DNA of 64,000 nucleotides, from assembly GCF_004138165.1 (NCBI RefSeq), contig NZ_RYFF01000008.1:1-64000 (forward strand), given 5' to 3'. Shown in pieces: positions 10,255 to 59,294 of this stretch. This DNA comes from Candidatus Chloroploca sp. Khr17. GTDB taxonomy: Bacteria; Chloroflexota; Chloroflexia; Chloroflexales; Chloroflexaceae. Numbering within the stretch: position 1 is the first letter of the stretch; every line of letters starts with the position of its first letter. Below the pieces are notes generated by a model. That model saw only the letters and a list, made by a program, of their open reading frames with translations, ran no database searches and had not been told where the DNA came from. Position numbers and translations under genes: made by a program.

Positions 10255-10500
10255 TGCCCCACCGTCCCCCCGTTGCGCCTTTGCGCCTTTGCGTCAAAAA
10301 ACCCACCGTCCCCCCGTTGCGCCTTCGCGCCTTTGCGTCAAAAAACCCACCGTCCCCCCGTTGCGCCTTCGCGCCTTTGCGTCAAAAACCCCCCCTCGCC
10401 CCCCCTCGCCCCCCTTCGCGCCTTCGCGCCTTTGCGTCAAAAACCCCCCTCCCCCCGTTGCGCCGTTGCGCCTTCGCGCCTTTGCGTCAAAAAAACCGTC
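10255..10500. repeat. array of five GCGCCTTTGCGTCAAAAA units
   Basis: Five copies of GCGCCTTTGCGTCAAAAA are separated by C-rich spacers (ACCCACCGTCCCCC and variants), with a period near 45-50 bp. The same core recurs at 15930-15990, 20709-20791, 57130-57160 and 59190-59260. It is not a CRISPR: units and spacers are both variants of one low-complexity sequence. No gene was seen between 10234 and 10527. Confidence 0.8.
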
Positions 10501-15904: not shown

Positions 15905-15990
15905 AACACCCGCCCTCGCTCACAGAACCCTTGCGCCTTTGCGTCAAAAAAACCTTTGCACCCTTGCGCCTTTGCGTCAAAAAAAACCAC
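15905..15990. repeat. two GCGCCTTTGCGTCAAAAAA units
   Basis: CTTGCGCCTTTGCGTCAAAA appears twice in direct orientation (about 15929-15950 and 15964-15985), the same core as in the array at 10255-10500. Confidence 0.7.
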
Positions 15991-16061: not shown

Positions 16062-16838
16062 ATGACGGCCTATCGTATTCCAATTATGCTCGTACTGTGG
16101 GTGATGTTCCTCGTTGGGTGTGGCGGGTCTGTCGTTGTGACGCCGTCGCCAACCGCAGTGCCGCCAACGCTCGCCGTTGCTACCACTGCGCCAACCGCAA
16201 CGCCAGCCTTGCCAACTCCCGAGGCTGCCTTCACCCCAACGCTCCCGCCTGCACCAACTGACTTGCCTGTGCCACCAACCGCCACCGTCGCCCCACCGGA
16301 CGCCATCGCCGAAAGCCGTACCGCCGAGGGCTATCATGTGCTTGGTGATCCTAATGCACCAGTGACCCTGGTGATGTTTTCTGATTTTCTCTGAACGGCC
16401 TGTGCGCTCCACGTGTTGGAGACCGAGCCACAGCTGATCGAGCAGTATATCAAGACGGGCACCGTGAAATTAGTCTATCGCCATCTCGTCCAGCTTGGCG
16501 ATCGCTCACTCCAGCTCGCCGAAGCCAGCGAATGCGCCGCCGACCAGGGCAAGTTCTGGCCGATGCGCCAGGCCATCTATGCGCGCTACAACCAGATGCT
16601 CTTTGACACCGAGCAGGAACTTGCCGCCGCCGCCGCTGACGCCGACGTTGACCTCGCGCAACTCAACGCCTGCCTCGACGCCGCAACGCATCGCGCCGCC
16701 GTCCAGGCCGATCACGACGCCGCCACCGCCGAGGGCATTCGTTCACGCCCGGTCTTTCGCCTCGGGGAACGTACCCTGATTGGCGCTCAGCCCTTCACGG
16801 TCTTTCAAGATCTGATTGCCCAGGCTTCAGGACGTTAG
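16062..16838 (+). CDS. DsbA-like thiol oxidoreductase lipoprotein with a predicted selenocysteine (UxxC)
   Basis: Read through the in-frame TGA at 16392-16394, this is one 258-residue protein. The signal peptide ends in a lipobox (MFLVGC, Cys about 19). A Pro/Thr-rich linker follows to about residue 90, then a DsbA/Thioredoxin_4 domain: GDPNAPVTLVMFSDFL, TGA at codon 111, TAC, ALHVLETEP. In the family this position reads DFxCPxC, so TGA replaces the first, nucleophilic Cys (UTAC). The cis-Pro loop (GIRSRPVFRLGER) and the GAQP end are intact, so this is not a decayed gene. A stem-loop after the TGA has SECIS-like geometry, and selD lies about 4 kb away. It would catalyse thiol-disulfide exchange outside the membrane. 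The alternative, a nonsense mutation, is less likely because the rest of the gene is undamaged. Confidence 0.82.
16392..16434 (+). promoter_or_regulatory. candidate bacterial SECIS element of the DsbA-like gene
   Basis: After the TGA, CTCCA (16407-16411) pairs with TGGAG (16417-16421) around the apical loop CGTGT at +18 to +22. An outer CTGTG (16400-16404) can pair with CACAG (16429-16433). Bacterial SECIS hairpins place a short G/U-containing apical loop about 16-23 bases after UGA; the fit is good but not proof. Confidence 0.6.
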
Positions 16839-16946: not shown

Positions 16947-17711
16947 ATGCAACGCAACAATCTCTTCTTGCCACTGAGCCTCATTTTCACCGGGGTTGCC
17001 TTGCTGCTCATCTTAGTGAGTGGCACGCTCTCCGATACAACCATAGCTCAAACGCAAGTTAAAATTTGTCCTGATCCGGCGTATCCTAATCAGACATTGC
17101 CTGAATGTCTTTCCACTCAGGTAGCGATGACGGCGACCACAGGTGCCCGCGCAACCCAGACACAAGTGGCAAAAGAAAATGCCTACAGTACCGAAACGGC
17201 CCAGAGTCTGACCACCCGAACGCCTACCAGAACTGCCACCCAGAGCGGAGCAGGCGGGGACACAATGAATGAACCCACGGCCACCCCAACCCCAACCCCA
17301 ACCCGCACCAATACGCCAACGGCAACTCCGGTCAACAACGGGAATCCAACAGCAGCGTCCACCTCCACGTTGACATCAACACCAATGGCGACCAGAACCC
17401 CCAATGGCGAGGGTGCCACGATCACGCCCACCAGTCTCCCTGACGGGATCGAGATCCTGACCTGCTTTGCCCAATCCACCGTCGAGTTGACCGGCGACGC
17501 CGAGCCCAATACGGCGCTGCTGCTCTACTTCAACAGCCGCCCAGTTGGCGGGGGCTTCACACGGGCCGACGGACAGTACAAGCTCAACCTGAAGATCGGT
17601 GACGAGCGGCCAGGTACCCACATCGTCGAAATCCGCGAACGCGACGGGCGCGACCTCGTCCGCCGCCTCGCCTGCGACATCCCCGCCCCACCCACCCCCA
17701 TCATCCCATAG
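16947..17711 (+). CDS. secreted or membrane-anchored protein with Thr/Pro-rich stalk
   Basis: The 254-residue product has an N-terminal hydrophobic segment (about 6-28), then a Cys-containing patch (KICPDPAYPNQTLPECLS), a long Thr/Pro/Ala stalk with TPTPTPTRT-type repeats (about 75-155), and a compact C-terminal domain of about 85 residues (GIEILTCFAQSTVELTGDAE, then ADGQYKLNLKIGDERPGTH) that looks like a beta-sandwich of carboxypeptidase-regulatory or Ig type. It is probably exported and displayed at the cell surface. No enzyme motif is visible. The ATG at 16947 has TAGGAGAAG 8 bases upstream. Confidence 0.7.
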   Translation: MQRNNLFLPLSLIFTGVALLLILVSGTLSDTTIAQTQVKICPDPAYPNQTLPECLSTQVAMTATTGARATQTQVAKENAYSTETAQSLTTRTPTRTATQSGAGGDTMNEPTATPTPTPTRTNTPTATPVNNGNPTAASTSTLTSTPMATRTPNGEGATITPTSLPDGIEILTCFAQSTVELTGDAEPNTALLLYFNSRPVGGGFTRADGQYKLNLKIGDERPGTHIVEIRERDGRDLVRRLACDIPAPPTPIIP

Positions 17712-17720
17712 TCTGCCCCC

Positions 17721-17771
17721 TTTGGTTGCACGAAAAAAGCCAGCAAAGCTGGCTTTTTTCGTGCAACCAAA
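17721..17771. terminator. bidirectional terminator between convergent genes
   Basis: Perfect 24-bp arms with an AAA loop and the centre GCCAGC-AAA-GCTGGC. The arms contain A6 and T6 runs, so an intrinsic terminator can form on either strand. It lies between the secreted-protein gene (+) and menC (-). Confidence 0.75.
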
Positions 17772-17824
17772 GCTTCCTGGGCCGCAGGCCCCCAACCCTC
17801 ACCCCCGTGGCACGGTGGCAGGCG

Positions 17825-18946
17825 TCAGCCCGCCACCGTGCCACGAAGCACCACCTTTTCTACCGTGACTTGGTCAAGAAAATCCACATCAATGTCAGCC
17901 CCAGTTCCTGGACGATCAGGTACCGTCAGGGTGCTATCTGCATTGAGCACAAAGGGATTGGTGACAATATCACGGGCAAAGTAGCGCGCACTGGCACTGA
18001 TGTCACCCGGCAAGGTGAAGTTCGGCAGGCTCGCCAGGGCCACATTCGCCGCCCGGCCAATGCCCGTTTCGAGCATGCCGCCACACCAGACCGGCACGCC
18101 GGCCGCTGCCGCCATGTCGTGAATCTGACGCGCTGCGTGCAAGCCACCCACCCGACTCGGCTTGATATTGATGACCCCACACGCCCGCAACTCAAGCGCC
18201 CAGCGGGCGTGATCAGGCGAAACAATGCTCTCATCAAGACAGATTGGCGTCTGCACGATGCGTTGCAACTTGGCATGATCAAGGATGTCATCGTGGGCCA
18301 GGGGTTGCTCGATCAAGAGCAGATCGTACGCATCGAGTTTCGCCAGATGCGCCGCGTGATCAAGCGTATAGATGCTATTCGCATCAACTTGCAACCGTAG
18401 ATCAGGCCAGGTCTCACGCACAAGCCGCGTCGGCTCAAGATCCCAACCCGGCTTGATCTTCAGCTTGACCCGCTGATAGCCCGCCGCAACATAGTCGCCG
18501 ACCACGCGCAGCAGCGTATCAAGATCGGGTTGCACCCCCACACTGACCCCCACCTCGACGCGCTCACGTTGCCCCCCCAGCATCGCCCGCAGGCTCTGCC
18601 CGGTGGCCCGCCCAAAGAGATCCCACACCGCAAACTCAAATCCAGCACAGGCCATCCGATTGCCCCGCACCCGTGCATAGACCGCTGCCACATCCTCGGG
18701 CCGCGTCAACTCGGCCGCCAGCAACATCGGGGCCAGATGCTCTTGGGCCATCACCCACGCGGTACTGCTGGTCTCCTCGTTATACCAGGGGCCAGTTCCG
18801 ACTGGCGACTCGCCCCACCCGACGATGCCATCTGCCTCCACCCGCACCAGCAACGCATGGCTCGCCAATTCACGCCAGCCACTCGTCTCAAAAGGGGCCA
18901 CATACGGTAACGCAATCCGCCGAAGCTCAATCTGCTCAATCTTCAT
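17825..18946 (-). CDS. menC: o-succinylbenzoate synthase / N-acylamino-acid racemase-type enolase
   Basis: A 373-residue enolase-superfamily enzyme. The acid-base lysine motif VKLKIKPGW, metal ligands in QVDANS, IEQPL and CLDES, and the second lysine in NIKPSRVGG are all present and correctly ordered. This set matches the MenC/NSAR group, which makes o-succinylbenzoate in menaquinone synthesis and sometimes racemises N-acylamino acids. I chose the ATG at 18946 (MKIEQIEL). It starts 8 bp after the end of the cyclotransferase gene, so the two are probably co-transcribed. No other men gene is in the window, so the physiological reaction is inferred. Confidence 0.85.
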   Translation of the reverse strand: MKIEQIELRRIALPYVAPFETSGWRELASHALLVRVEADGIVGWGESPVGTGPWYNEETSSTAWVMAQEHLAPMLLAAELTRPEDVAAVYARVRGNRMACAGFEFAVWDLFGRATGQSLRAMLGGQRERVEVGVSVGVQPDLDTLLRVVGDYVAAGYQRVKLKIKPGWDLEPTRLVRETWPDLRLQVDANSIYTLDHAAHLAKLDAYDLLLIEQPLAHDDILDHAKLQRIVQTPICLDESIVSPDHARWALELRACGVINIKPSRVGGLHAARQIHDMAAAAGVPVWCGGMLETGIGRAANVALASLPNFTLPGDISASARYFARDIVTNPFVLNADSTLTVPDRPGTGADIDVDFLDQVTVEKVVLRGTVAG

Positions 18947-18954
18947 ACGGCAAC

Positions 18955-19986
18955 CTACAAACTCCCATCTAAACGACTCTGCACATACGGCATATGGACA
19001 CGCCACAACGGCTCGATCTGGAACAGTTGCGGCCAGAGTTTCCCCGTCACAAAGAGGCGCTTGCCTTCGGCATCATAGGCGATGCCATTCAACACTTCGG
19101 GCGGGCGCAGGCCCGGAGGATTCGCGGGCAACAGGTCGCGCAGCTCGCTGAGGTCAAGGTACGCTTTGACCTGACCGGTCTTCGGATCGATCCGTGCGAT
19201 CAGATCAGAAAACCAGATATTGGCATACACATCGCCTTCAATATATTCGAGTTCATTGAGGCGTGGCACCAGACCAAGGCGATCATAGACCTCAACTTGA
19301 TCAACCACCGTGAGTTCACCCGTCTGCAAGGTTGCCTCGGGGTCAATAACATAGAGATTGGCCGTACCATCGCTCATGATCAGATGCGTCCCATCAAAGG
19401 TCAGGCCCCACCCCTCTATCGGAAGAGGTCGGCCCTGAGGAGGATAGCGAAAGCGATCGAGTTCACGAAAATCAGCGCGGTCATAGACAAAACCGGTGCG
19501 CTCTTGCCAGGTCAACTGGAAGATCAGGTCGCCCACAAGCGCAAGCCCCTCGGCAAAATAGTTTGACTCAAGCATATGCGGCTCGCGCACCTGCGTCCCA
19601 TCAAGGGCAACTTCACGCAAGGTCGAAGCCCCATACAGCCCCGTACTCTCATAGAAACGGTCGTCACCGTGGTAGACCAACCCCTGCGTAAACGCCTCGG
19701 GATCATGGGCATACGTCGTCACGACCACCACCTCGACCACTGGTGCACCGCTGCGGCGGATCGCATCAGGCAGCACCTGGGCCGTCCGATTGATCGGCCC
19801 GGCATCGGGCAGGGTCAACAGAGCAGACTCGGGGCTTGGCCTTGGCGATACGACAACAGAAGGAGCAGCAAGCACGGTAGGCGGCTGCGCAAGCACCGTC
19901 TCCTCAGCGGGCGTCGTACAACCAGCCGCAAGGAGCAGCACCGCAAGCAGCGCAAGCCATTGTCGCAGAAGAGACCGAAATTTCAC
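18955..19986 (-). CDS. glutaminyl-peptide cyclotransferase-like lipoprotein
   Basis: A 343-residue protein of the plant/bacterial-type glutamine cyclotransferase family (PF05096), a five-bladed propeller that converts N-terminal Gln to pyroglutamate. Signature segments are clear: FTQGLVYHGD, ESTGLYGASTLR, NYFAEGLAL, QLTWQERTGFVYD, EGWGLTFDG, MSDGTANLYVIDP, LNELEYIEGDVYANIW and LNGIAYD. The N-terminus is a lipoprotein signal (LLAVLLLAAGC), so it acts outside the membrane. I chose the GTG at 19986, just before the signal peptide, with AGGA upstream; longer frames add residues that do not fit an export signal. Confidence 0.88.
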   Translation of the reverse strand: MKFRSLLRQWLALLAVLLLAAGCTTPAEETVLAQPPTVLAAPSVVVSPRPSPESALLTLPDAGPINRTAQVLPDAIRRSGAPVVEVVVVTTYAHDPEAFTQGLVYHGDDRFYESTGLYGASTLREVALDGTQVREPHMLESNYFAEGLALVGDLIFQLTWQERTGFVYDRADFRELDRFRYPPQGRPLPIEGWGLTFDGTHLIMSDGTANLYVIDPEATLQTGELTVVDQVEVYDRLGLVPRLNELEYIEGDVYANIWFSDLIARIDPKTGQVKAYLDLSELRDLLPANPPGLRPPEVLNGIAYDAEGKRLFVTGKLWPQLFQIEPLWRVHMPYVQSRLDGSL

Positions 19987-20708: not shown

Positions 20709-20812
20709 CGTTTTTTGACGCAAAGGCGCAAAGACGCTAAGATATGATCTGTCTCTATGCGTAGCTTTGCGCCTTTGCGCCTTTGCGTCAACACGGATCA
20801 GCCTTATTTGTC
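20709..20812. repeat. inverted repeat with GACGCAAAGGCGCAAAG arms
   Basis: The left arm TTTTGACGCAAAGGCGCAAAG and right arm CTTTGCGCCTTTGCGTCAA flank about 45 bp. The block, including the AACACGG and CCTTATTTG segments, is a diverged relative of the 136-bp element at 59159-59294. It lies between the CBS gene and selD. Confidence 0.65.
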
Positions 20813-20834: not shown

Positions 20835-21878
20835 GTGGATCAGCGTGAGCAGATACGCCTCACCAGTCTGGCAAGCAGCGCTGGCTGAGCGTCAAAGTTG
20901 GGGCCGGGTGCCCTTGCCAAACTATTAGCAACCCTGCAACTGCCAACAAGCTCCAATCTGCTGATCGGGCTGGCCGTGAGTGACGACGCGGCCGTCTATC
21001 AACTCGATGCGCAGACGGCGCTTGTCCAGACGGTTGACTTTTTTCCGCCAATTGTTGACGACCCCTACACCTTCGGGGCCATCGCGGCGGCCAATGCACT
21101 CAGTGATATCTATGCGATGGGCGGTCGTCCGATCCTTGCCCTCGCCATTGCGGCCTTCCCCGACGATCTCGACCCGGCGATCGCCGCAGCGATCTTGCAA
21201 GGCGGGGCCGATAAGGCTGCCGAGGCAGGCGCCGTGGTTGCGGGTGGGCATACCGTGGTTGACCGCGAGCCAAAATATGGTCTCTGTGTCACTGGTCTCG
21301 TTGATCCAGCGCGCATTACCGCGAAAGTCGGCGCACGCCCGGGCGACCGCCTCTTGTTGACCAAACCGCTCGGCACCGGTCTGATTACGACTGCGCTGAA
21401 ACGCGGGGCCGCTCCAGCCGAGCACCTCGCAGCCGCCGTTGCTAGTATGCTTCGGCTCAATCGCCGTGCCGCTGAATTGAGTGCCCCGGTTGAAGTCCAC
21501 GCCGCGACCGATATTACTGGCTACGGCTTGCTTGGGCACGCCGCCGAAATCGCTCGGCGTAGCGCGGTTGGCCTGCGCATCGAAACGGCGCATCTCCCCC
21601 TGCTCCCCGGTGCCCTCGAAGCCGCACGCCAGGGGTATGTCCCCGGTGGCTTACGGCGTAACCGCGAGTACCTCGAAAGTGAAGACTATCTACACTACAG
21701 CCCCTCGATCGAAGAAGCGATCCGCCTGATCCTCTTTGACCCACAGACTTCGGGCGGCCTGCTGATCGCCCTGCCTCCCGCTGCCGCCGCCCAACTCCAA
21801 GCCGCTTGTGCGGCGCACGGCGAACCATGCTACGCCATTGGCGAGGTCGTCGCCGCTCCGGGGATCGAACTTAGCTAA
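20835..21878 (+). CDS. selD: selenide, water dikinase, itself a predicted selenoprotein
   Basis: Starting at the GTG at 20835 (GGAGAT 5 bases upstream) and reading the TGA at 20886-20888 as Sec, the product is 347 residues, the same as E. coli SelD. The start reads IRLTSLASSAG-U-ASKLGPGAL, aligning with the LTQYSHGAG-C-GCK region where the family has catalytic Cys or Sec. Downstream family motifs are intact: SDDAAVYQLD, TVDFFPPIVDDP, ANALSDIYAMGG, AGGHTVVD, TDITGYGLLGH, YVPGGLRRN and DPQTSGGLL. It makes selenophosphate from selenide and ATP for Sec-tRNA synthesis. Starting after the TGA would remove the catalytic residue. selA, selB and selC are not in the window. Confidence 0.92.
20886..20919 (+). 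promoter_or_regulatory. candidate bacterial SECIS element of selD
   Basis: GGGC (20901-20904) pairs with GCCC (20910-20913) around the loop CGGGT at +17 to +21 after the TGA. TTGG (20898-20901) and CCAA (20917-20920) could extend or compete with the stem. Loop position and length match the stem-loop in the DsbA-like gene. Confidence 0.55.
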
Positions 21879-32501: not shown

Positions 32502-33603
32502 ATGTACGATCTCGCAACCGAAGTGGCCGATCTCCGTGAGCGCTTTGCGCTGATCCGGGGGCATCTTTGACCTGGCTAGCAAACAGGCCCAGATTGAAGA
32601 ACTTGAAGTACGCGCCGCGCATCCCGAGCTCTGGAATGATCCGCGGGAAGCTCAGGGTTTGATGCAACGTCTGACGCGCCTCAAAAATGAGGTCGACGTC
32701 TGGACGACAATAGGGGTGCGGCTAACCAGTCTTGATGAATTGATTGAGCTTGCCTCGGCTGAAGATGATGACTCGCTCCACGAGGAACTGACGACCGAGG
32801 TTGCGGCGAGTCGGGCCGAACTCGACCGTCTCGAACTCGGGCTGCTGCTCAGCGGGCCTTATGATGACGGCGATACCTTTCTTTCGATCCAGGCCGGCAT
32901 GGGTGGCACCGATGCCCAGGATTGGGCCGAGATGTTGCTGCGTATGTATATGCGGTGGGCCGAGGCACGTGGGTTCACGGTGAATCTGCTGGAAGAGAGC
33001 CCCGGTGACGAGGCCGGGATCAAGAGCGCCACCATTGAGGTGCGTGGGCCGTATGCGTATGGCTATGCCCGCGCCGAGGCCGGCGTCCATCGCTTGATCC
33101 GCCTCTCGCCCTTTAATTCGGCCCATACCCGCCAGACGTCGTTTGCCCGTATCGAGGTGATGCCCGAGGTTGATGACGCGCCCGAGATCGTCATCAAGCC
33201 TGACGATCTGCGCGTTGATGTCTTTCGCAGCGGCGGACACGGCGGCCAGGGTGTCAATACGACCGACTCGGCGGTGCGCCTCACCCACCTACCCACCGGA
33301 CTCGTCGTCATTTGTCAAAATGAGCGCTCGCAGCTCCAGAATCGTGAAACAGCCCTGCGCGTGCTGCGTGGGCGCCTGCTCGAACGCGATCTGCAGCGCC
33401 AGGCCGAAGAACGCGCCCGTCTGCGCGGGGCCTATCGCGATGCAGCGTTTGGGAGCCAGATGCGCACCTATTACTTGCATCCTTCGACGCTCGTCAAAGA
33501 CCATCGCACCGACCACGAAACAAGCAATGTGCAGGCCGTTCTCGATGGACAAATCGATCCGTTCATCGAGGCGTATCTGCGTTGGAATGTTGCAGAGGCA
33601 TAA
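32502..33603 (+). CDS. prfB: peptide chain release factor 2 with programmed +1 frameshift
   Basis: Release factor for UGA and UAA stops. The first 22 codons from the ATG at 32502 end at an in-frame TGA (32568-32570) inside CTTTGAC; a +1 shift on CTT continues as DLASKQAQIEELEVRAAHPE, the normal RF2 start. The rest has the RF2 tripeptide SPF (RLSPFNSAHTRQ) and the catalytic GGQ loop (SGGHGGQGVNTTDSAVR). Total length is about 366 residues. The shift lets RF2 control its own synthesis. GGAGGGTAAC precedes the ATG. The stop overlaps the next start (TAATG at 33601). Because this genome appears to read UGA as Sec in some genes, RF2 and Sec insertion must compete at those sites. Confidence 0.96.
32557..32571 (+). 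promoter_or_regulatory. RF2 programmed frameshift signal
   Basis: GGGGG (an internal Shine-Dalgarno-like stimulator) followed by CAT CTT TGA C, the classic prfB slippery site. Slow recognition of UGA when RF2 is scarce favours slipping of the Leu tRNA to UUU. Confidence 0.93.
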
Positions 33604-59158: not shown

Positions 59159-59294
59159 CCAATACCTTGCAAATACGTCGGGTTATTTGACGCAAAGGCG
59201 CAGAGGCGCAGAGGTTTGATGGATCTGTATGCGCAGCTTTGCGCCTTTGCGTCTTTGCATGAACACGGGTCAACCTTAATTTGCAAGGTATTGG
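59159..59294. mobile_element. 136-bp MITE-like element with TTTGACGCAAAGGCGCAG core
   Basis: The 16-bp inverted ends are CCAATACCTTGCAAAT at 59159-59174 and its complement at 59279-59294. Inside are TTTGACGCAAAGGCGCAGAG and the opposing CTTTGCGCCTTTGCGTCTTTG. It ends 2 bp before the fmt stop. A diverged relative lies at 20709-20812. No obvious target duplication was found, and no coding sequence. Confidence 0.6.

Follow-up and report, generated by a model that had tools for sequence, protein, structure and literature searches.

DsbG-like selenoproteins with a UxxC motif form the family NF041057, credited to Kryukov and Gladyshev 2004 (PMC13188914), and the DsbG-like protein has been placed under PF13462 (PMC9312934). 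We found no experimental work on the NF041057 family in the literature searched. For the RNA element that accompanies a bacterial Sec codon, the bSECIS model calls for a stem of 4–16 bp, a loop of 3–9 nt, a UGA-to-loop distance of 16–37 nt, a minimum free energy of at most -7.5 kcal/mol and a G within the first two loop positions (PMC13188914). The gene at 16062–16838 (+ strand) of the window, which is the whole stretch of 64,000 nucleotides that we analyzed, encodes a DsbA-like lipoprotein of 258 aa if its internal UGA is read as Sec. The product matches NF041057 over residues 10–254 with 262 bits (E = 5e-78), over the curated equivalog cut-off of 190, and the gene is thus a further member of an already catalogued family. 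Two traits of that family, a [UC]xxC motif with Sec or Cys in first position and a lipoprotein signal, are both present. The sequence evidence makes it almost certain that this is a genuine selenoprotein gene, its UGA read as Sec at an oxidoreductase active site. The gene is real and mostly ordinary, except for a conserved, undescribed neighbor gene.

Architecture and predicted fold of the product

The frame ends at a TAG and contains a single internal stop, the TGA at 16392–16394 (codon 111), in agreement with an earlier note on this DNA that had described one TGA in an otherwise intact frame. The surrounding residues read ...MFSDFL-U-TACALHVLE..., which places the putative Sec111 as the nucleophile of U-T-A-C and Cys114 (16401–16403) as the resolving cysteine of UxxC. 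At the N-terminus is the lipobox LVGC (residues 17–20, 16110–16121), with Cys20 as the predicted lipidated residue; by a simple pattern search, 28 of the 30 orthologues have a lipobox-like motif. P230 (16749–16751), preceded by an arginine, is the cis-proline of the thioredoxin fold. The same note had called the lipobox, the cis-proline and the C-terminus undamaged, and all are intact. Cys158 (16533–16535) and Cys204 (16671–16673) probably pair in a second disulfide that would be structural and not catalytic. Five residues (D108, C114, C158, C204 and P230) are invariant across all 30 orthologues compared. The Pfam family PF13462 (Thioredoxin_4) spans the TGA, covering residues 89–252 (E = 2e-26, 93.5 bits), whereas the match to PF01323 (DSBA) is weaker and restricted to residues 145–252 (30.9 bits).

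From residue 81 onward the AlphaFold model has high confidence (mean pLDDT per ten residues of 92–99, and approximately 97 over residues 81–250). It depicts a thioredoxin fold with a helical insertion, a [CU]xxC motif and a cis-proline, all characteristic of the DsbA/Thioredoxin_4 group. Residues before 81 form a low-confidence linker rich in Thr and Pro, and no DsbC/DsbG dimerization domain was seen in the model. The nearest solved folds in a Foldseek search were C. diphtheriae DsbA/TsdA (4pwo/7unn), Wolbachia alpha-DsbA1 (3f4r) and B. subtilis BdbD (3eu3), with M. tuberculosis DsbG and DsbA ranking lower than these DsbA types. The genome encodes one VKOR and one DsbD_TM/CcdA-type protein, neither of them linked to the Sec-DsbA gene; with both at hand, an oxidizing or a reducing electron partner is possible.

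These observations bear on the direction in which the enzyme would operate. Compared with Cys, Sec is in general the stronger nucleophile and the better leaving group. The same selenoprotein could, on this account, function mainly as a reductase or isomerase of the DsbG/DsbC kind, or as a peroxide-linked reductase, and not as a DsbA-type oxidase; the name "DsbG-like" that reviews give to the family and the presence of the DsbD/CcdA-type protein point the same way. The DsbA-type character of the closest folds, the lack of a visible dimerization domain in the model, which has only the low-confidence linker before residue 81, and the presence of VKOR, the usual re-oxidant of DsbA in such bacteria, argue against this function, which we regard as quite possible if short of probable. 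We favor a lipid-anchored, exported thiol-disulfide oxidoreductase of the DsbA/BdbD fold, most likely to act in forming disulfides in surface proteins or in their quality control. Once the protein is exported, the U111 selenolate would enter into exchange with disulfides or thiols of the substrate, and the mixed selenenyl-sulfide would then be resolved by C114. VKOR and the CcdA/DsbD-type membrane protein are possible electron partners, and either direction of electron flow may be envisaged.

The UGA codon, its hairpin and the Sec machinery

The homologue sample covered 61 genomes from the genus, the family and the order, among which the best 30 orthologues were compared; the genome that holds the query (G000) comprises 6.4 Mb in 171 contigs. 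At the column of the TGA, 18 of the 30 carry UGA and 12 carry Cys, with no third state. This alternation puts the position of the TGA beyond chance and bears out the earlier assignment of the codon to the nucleophile of a DsbA-type CxxC. No homologue stops at this codon, none has a random residue there, and the protein is conserved to either side of it. A second batch of homologues contributed 10 more Sec genes and 2 more Cys genes of the same clade. Candidatus Chloroploca asiatica and Ca. C. mongolica are closely related to the genome of the query: their orthologues, 91–92% identical to the query, have the identical TGA, and dN/dS 3' of the TGA is 0.039 and 0.091 in the comparisons with these two congeners, indicative of strong purifying selection. 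A plasmid search returned only thioredoxin-domain relatives, all below 60% identity. A paralogue with three in-frame TGAs (L131, G011:C335) was dropped from consideration, as its CxxC has Cys and the TGAs precede the domain; they lie just 5' of it and probably reflect a misassigned start or an N-terminus that has decayed.

A stem-loop had been noted 3' of the TGA, and we located it at bases 13–27 after the codon (16407–16421, + strand). The candidate SECIS hairpin has a 5-bp stem, CUCCA/UGGAG (16407–16411 and 16417–16421), and a CGUGU loop (16412–16416); with the T of the TGA numbered 0, the two arms are bases 15–19 and 25–29. Folding of the single sequence gave no significant structure (z-score -1.1 to 0.1), and the case for the hairpin is made by comparison across genes. 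The stem pairs completely in all 28 Sec-form genes, whereas synonymous recoding with pooled codon usage (2000 rounds) gave a mean of 8 and never more than 15 of the 28; among the 14 Cys-form genes a single one keeps it, as expected under this null. Compensatory changes occur at four of the five stem pairs, and no pair is broken, in 16 distinct Sec sequences chosen from the 28. On this comparison, the hairpin is under RNA-level selection in the Sec genes and not in the Cys genes. A covariance model of the hairpin recovered this site in the genome with E = 5e-14, the next-best match being at E = 0.04; it detected neither another such gene in the same genome nor the SECIS of selD. The hairpin agrees with the bSECIS model in geometry (5-bp stem, 5-nt loop, G at loop position 2) and in spacing (17 nt from UGA to loop). 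At -5.7 to -6.5 kcal/mol, its local energy falls short of the bSECIS cut-off of -7.5; 39 nt fold at -11.6 kcal/mol, but the computed fold differs from the hairpin. One Cys-form gene (L048, G027:C82) has TGC followed by CTCCA-CGTGC-TGGAG, an intact SECIS hairpin, in a genome that retains selA. Its sequence suggests that Sec gave way to Cys recently and that the SECIS is a remnant.

The genome encodes tRNA-Sec (anticodon UCA), selA, selB and selD, so that the selA, selB and selC whose absence would have counted against a selenoprotein were all found. Sec would be inserted at the UGA of 16392–16394 by SelB and tRNA-Sec by way of the hairpin at 16407–16421. selD (20835–21878, + strand), the selenide water dikinase gene, itself encodes a selenoprotein (SAG-U-ASK), with its Sec UGA at 20886–20888 (+ strand). 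The repeat GCGCCTTTGCGTC lies a short way 5' of both selD and the Sec-DsbA gene. It has 15 matches in the window at no more than one mismatch, against 0.2 expected, at 10275–10488, 15933–15978, 20717–20789, 57142 and 59189–59253, in clusters that are apparently mostly intergenic.

Competition with RF2 is inherent to bacterial Sec decoding, and the UGA could accordingly act mainly as a selenium-dependent switch, with a truncated lipoprotein of 110 residues as the usual product and readthrough only when selenium is plentiful. The C-terminal catalytic half is strongly constrained and the hairpin is lost in nearly all Cys forms, from which the full-length protein emerges as the selected product; we consider it unlikely that the UGA is mainly a switch, although it may serve both purposes. 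Translation of the UGA as another amino acid (Trp or Gly), or a variant genetic code, would leave the frame open under the changed code and explain nothing more; this reading is scarcely credible, given that Cys alone alternates with UGA, that the genome has tRNA-Sec along with the Sec machinery and that prfB, encoding the RF2 that terminates at UGA, is in the window. A nonsense mutation (pseudogene) or a base-call error in a Cys gene fits the break of the frame by a single TGA, and its likelihood is negligible: the identical TGA recurs in the 18 orthologues from independent assemblies, those of Ca. C. asiatica and mongolica included, the hairpin is under selection, and the shared codon together with the low downstream dN/dS (0.04–0.09) excludes both.

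With Sec decoding as the preferred reading, the distribution of the machinery across genomes is of note. Among the genomes that have a Sec-form gene, 24 of 25 have selA, against 4 of 12 Cys-only genomes (Fisher p = 1e-4, which is indicative only, as related genomes are not independent). The lone Sec-form genome without a detectable selA, G059, is 75% complete, and G060 is counted as Cys from the absence of a stop at the codon, its state being deduced and not read directly. Genome G029 has one copy of each form. To account for the tree, Sec and Cys must have switched six times or more within the Chloroflexales; the tree was built by a quick method, with several forks weakly supported and seven Sec paralogues included. 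These seven UxxC paralogues (L124–L130, in G059, G009, G058, G043, G052, G046 and G049) constitute a separate clade. The three of them that were scanned fall below the NF041057 cut-off (142–156 vs 190 bits). Their hairpin lies farther 3' of the UGA, and its stem varies while pairing is kept (CGUC/GACG, CGCC/GGCG). They are possibly a sister selenoprotein family without a model of its own.

prfB itself (32502–33600, + strand) has what is apparently a classic programmed +1 frameshift site. Starting from the ATG of 32502, the frame leads into ...CAT CTT TGA C (TGA, 32568–32570), and D-LASKQAQIEELEVRAAHPELWN follows in the main frame. This would be the third UGA recoding site in the window.

A conserved exported neighbor

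The gene immediately downstream (16947–17711, + strand) encodes an exported protein with no family match in Pfam or NCBIfam. By tblastn, 24 of the 29 other ortholog loci have a relative immediately after the DsbA-like gene or a short way downstream of it, whether the form is Sec or Cys, and 23 of the 24 were also recovered as ORFs. The predicted protein begins with a signal-like helix, continues with a Thr/Pro-rich stalk and ends in an all-beta domain of seven strands (pLDDT mostly above 94), for which Foldseek gave only weak Ig/FnIII-like matches. Two cysteines, C173 and C243, are present in every one of the 23 aligned neighbor proteins. The genomic linkage, the export signal and the invariant cysteine pair together make this Ig-like protein a plausible substrate, and a likely client encoded next door, of the Sec-DsbA oxidoreductase. 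Whether the two genes constitute a dedicated exported redox module across the Chloroflexales, with the neighbor as the cognate client or partner, is a more tentative matter; we put the proposal forward as one that may hold, on balance somewhat doubtful. A plus-strand ORF farther downstream (17726–18400) was rejected as a gene, as the minus-strand mandelate racemase/enolase-like gene at 17825–19006 covers most of it.

The conserved neighbor provides a concrete candidate client, through which the function of an exported DsbA with selenocysteine can be put to the test. The comparison of Sec and Cys forms is a clean natural experiment, in which the hairpin decays after the loss of Sec. The neighbor gene, together with the clear Sec/Cys/SECIS comparison, most deserves to be followed.

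Comparison with known systems

With this gene, a member of a selenoprotein family that has received little study is confirmed in filamentous anoxygenic phototrophs. What our analysis adds is the recurrence of Sec/Cys switching (six or more events in the order), the Cys copy with an intact hairpin, and the conserved downstream gene. The description of the product as an exported selenocysteine oxidoreductase, made earlier from the sequence, gains support from the Sec/Cys column, the hairpin and the machinery; the term oxidoreductase is one that we infer from fold and motif. The proteins of the closest solved folds (4pwo, 7unn, 3f4r and 3eu3; E of 6e-13 to 1e-10 to the query) are likewise extracytoplasmic thiol-disulfide oxidoreductases. 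They share 22–30% identity with the query over the catalytic domain and, unlike the query with its Sec, have Cys as the nucleophile. The DsbA-like protein form 1 (PF01323), known from the Sargasso Sea and bacterial selenoproteome surveys, also has UxxC in a DsbA fold. It is treated as a separate family in reviews, and the query fits PF13462 far better (93.5 vs 30.9 bits). The closest system is NF041057 itself, the "Rcas_1661 family thioredoxin-like (seleno)lipoprotein", with which the query shares a full-length match, the lipoprotein character, UxxC and an origin in the Chloroflexales. There is no structural difference between the two, and the query is the orthologue of this protein in another Chloroploca-type genome.
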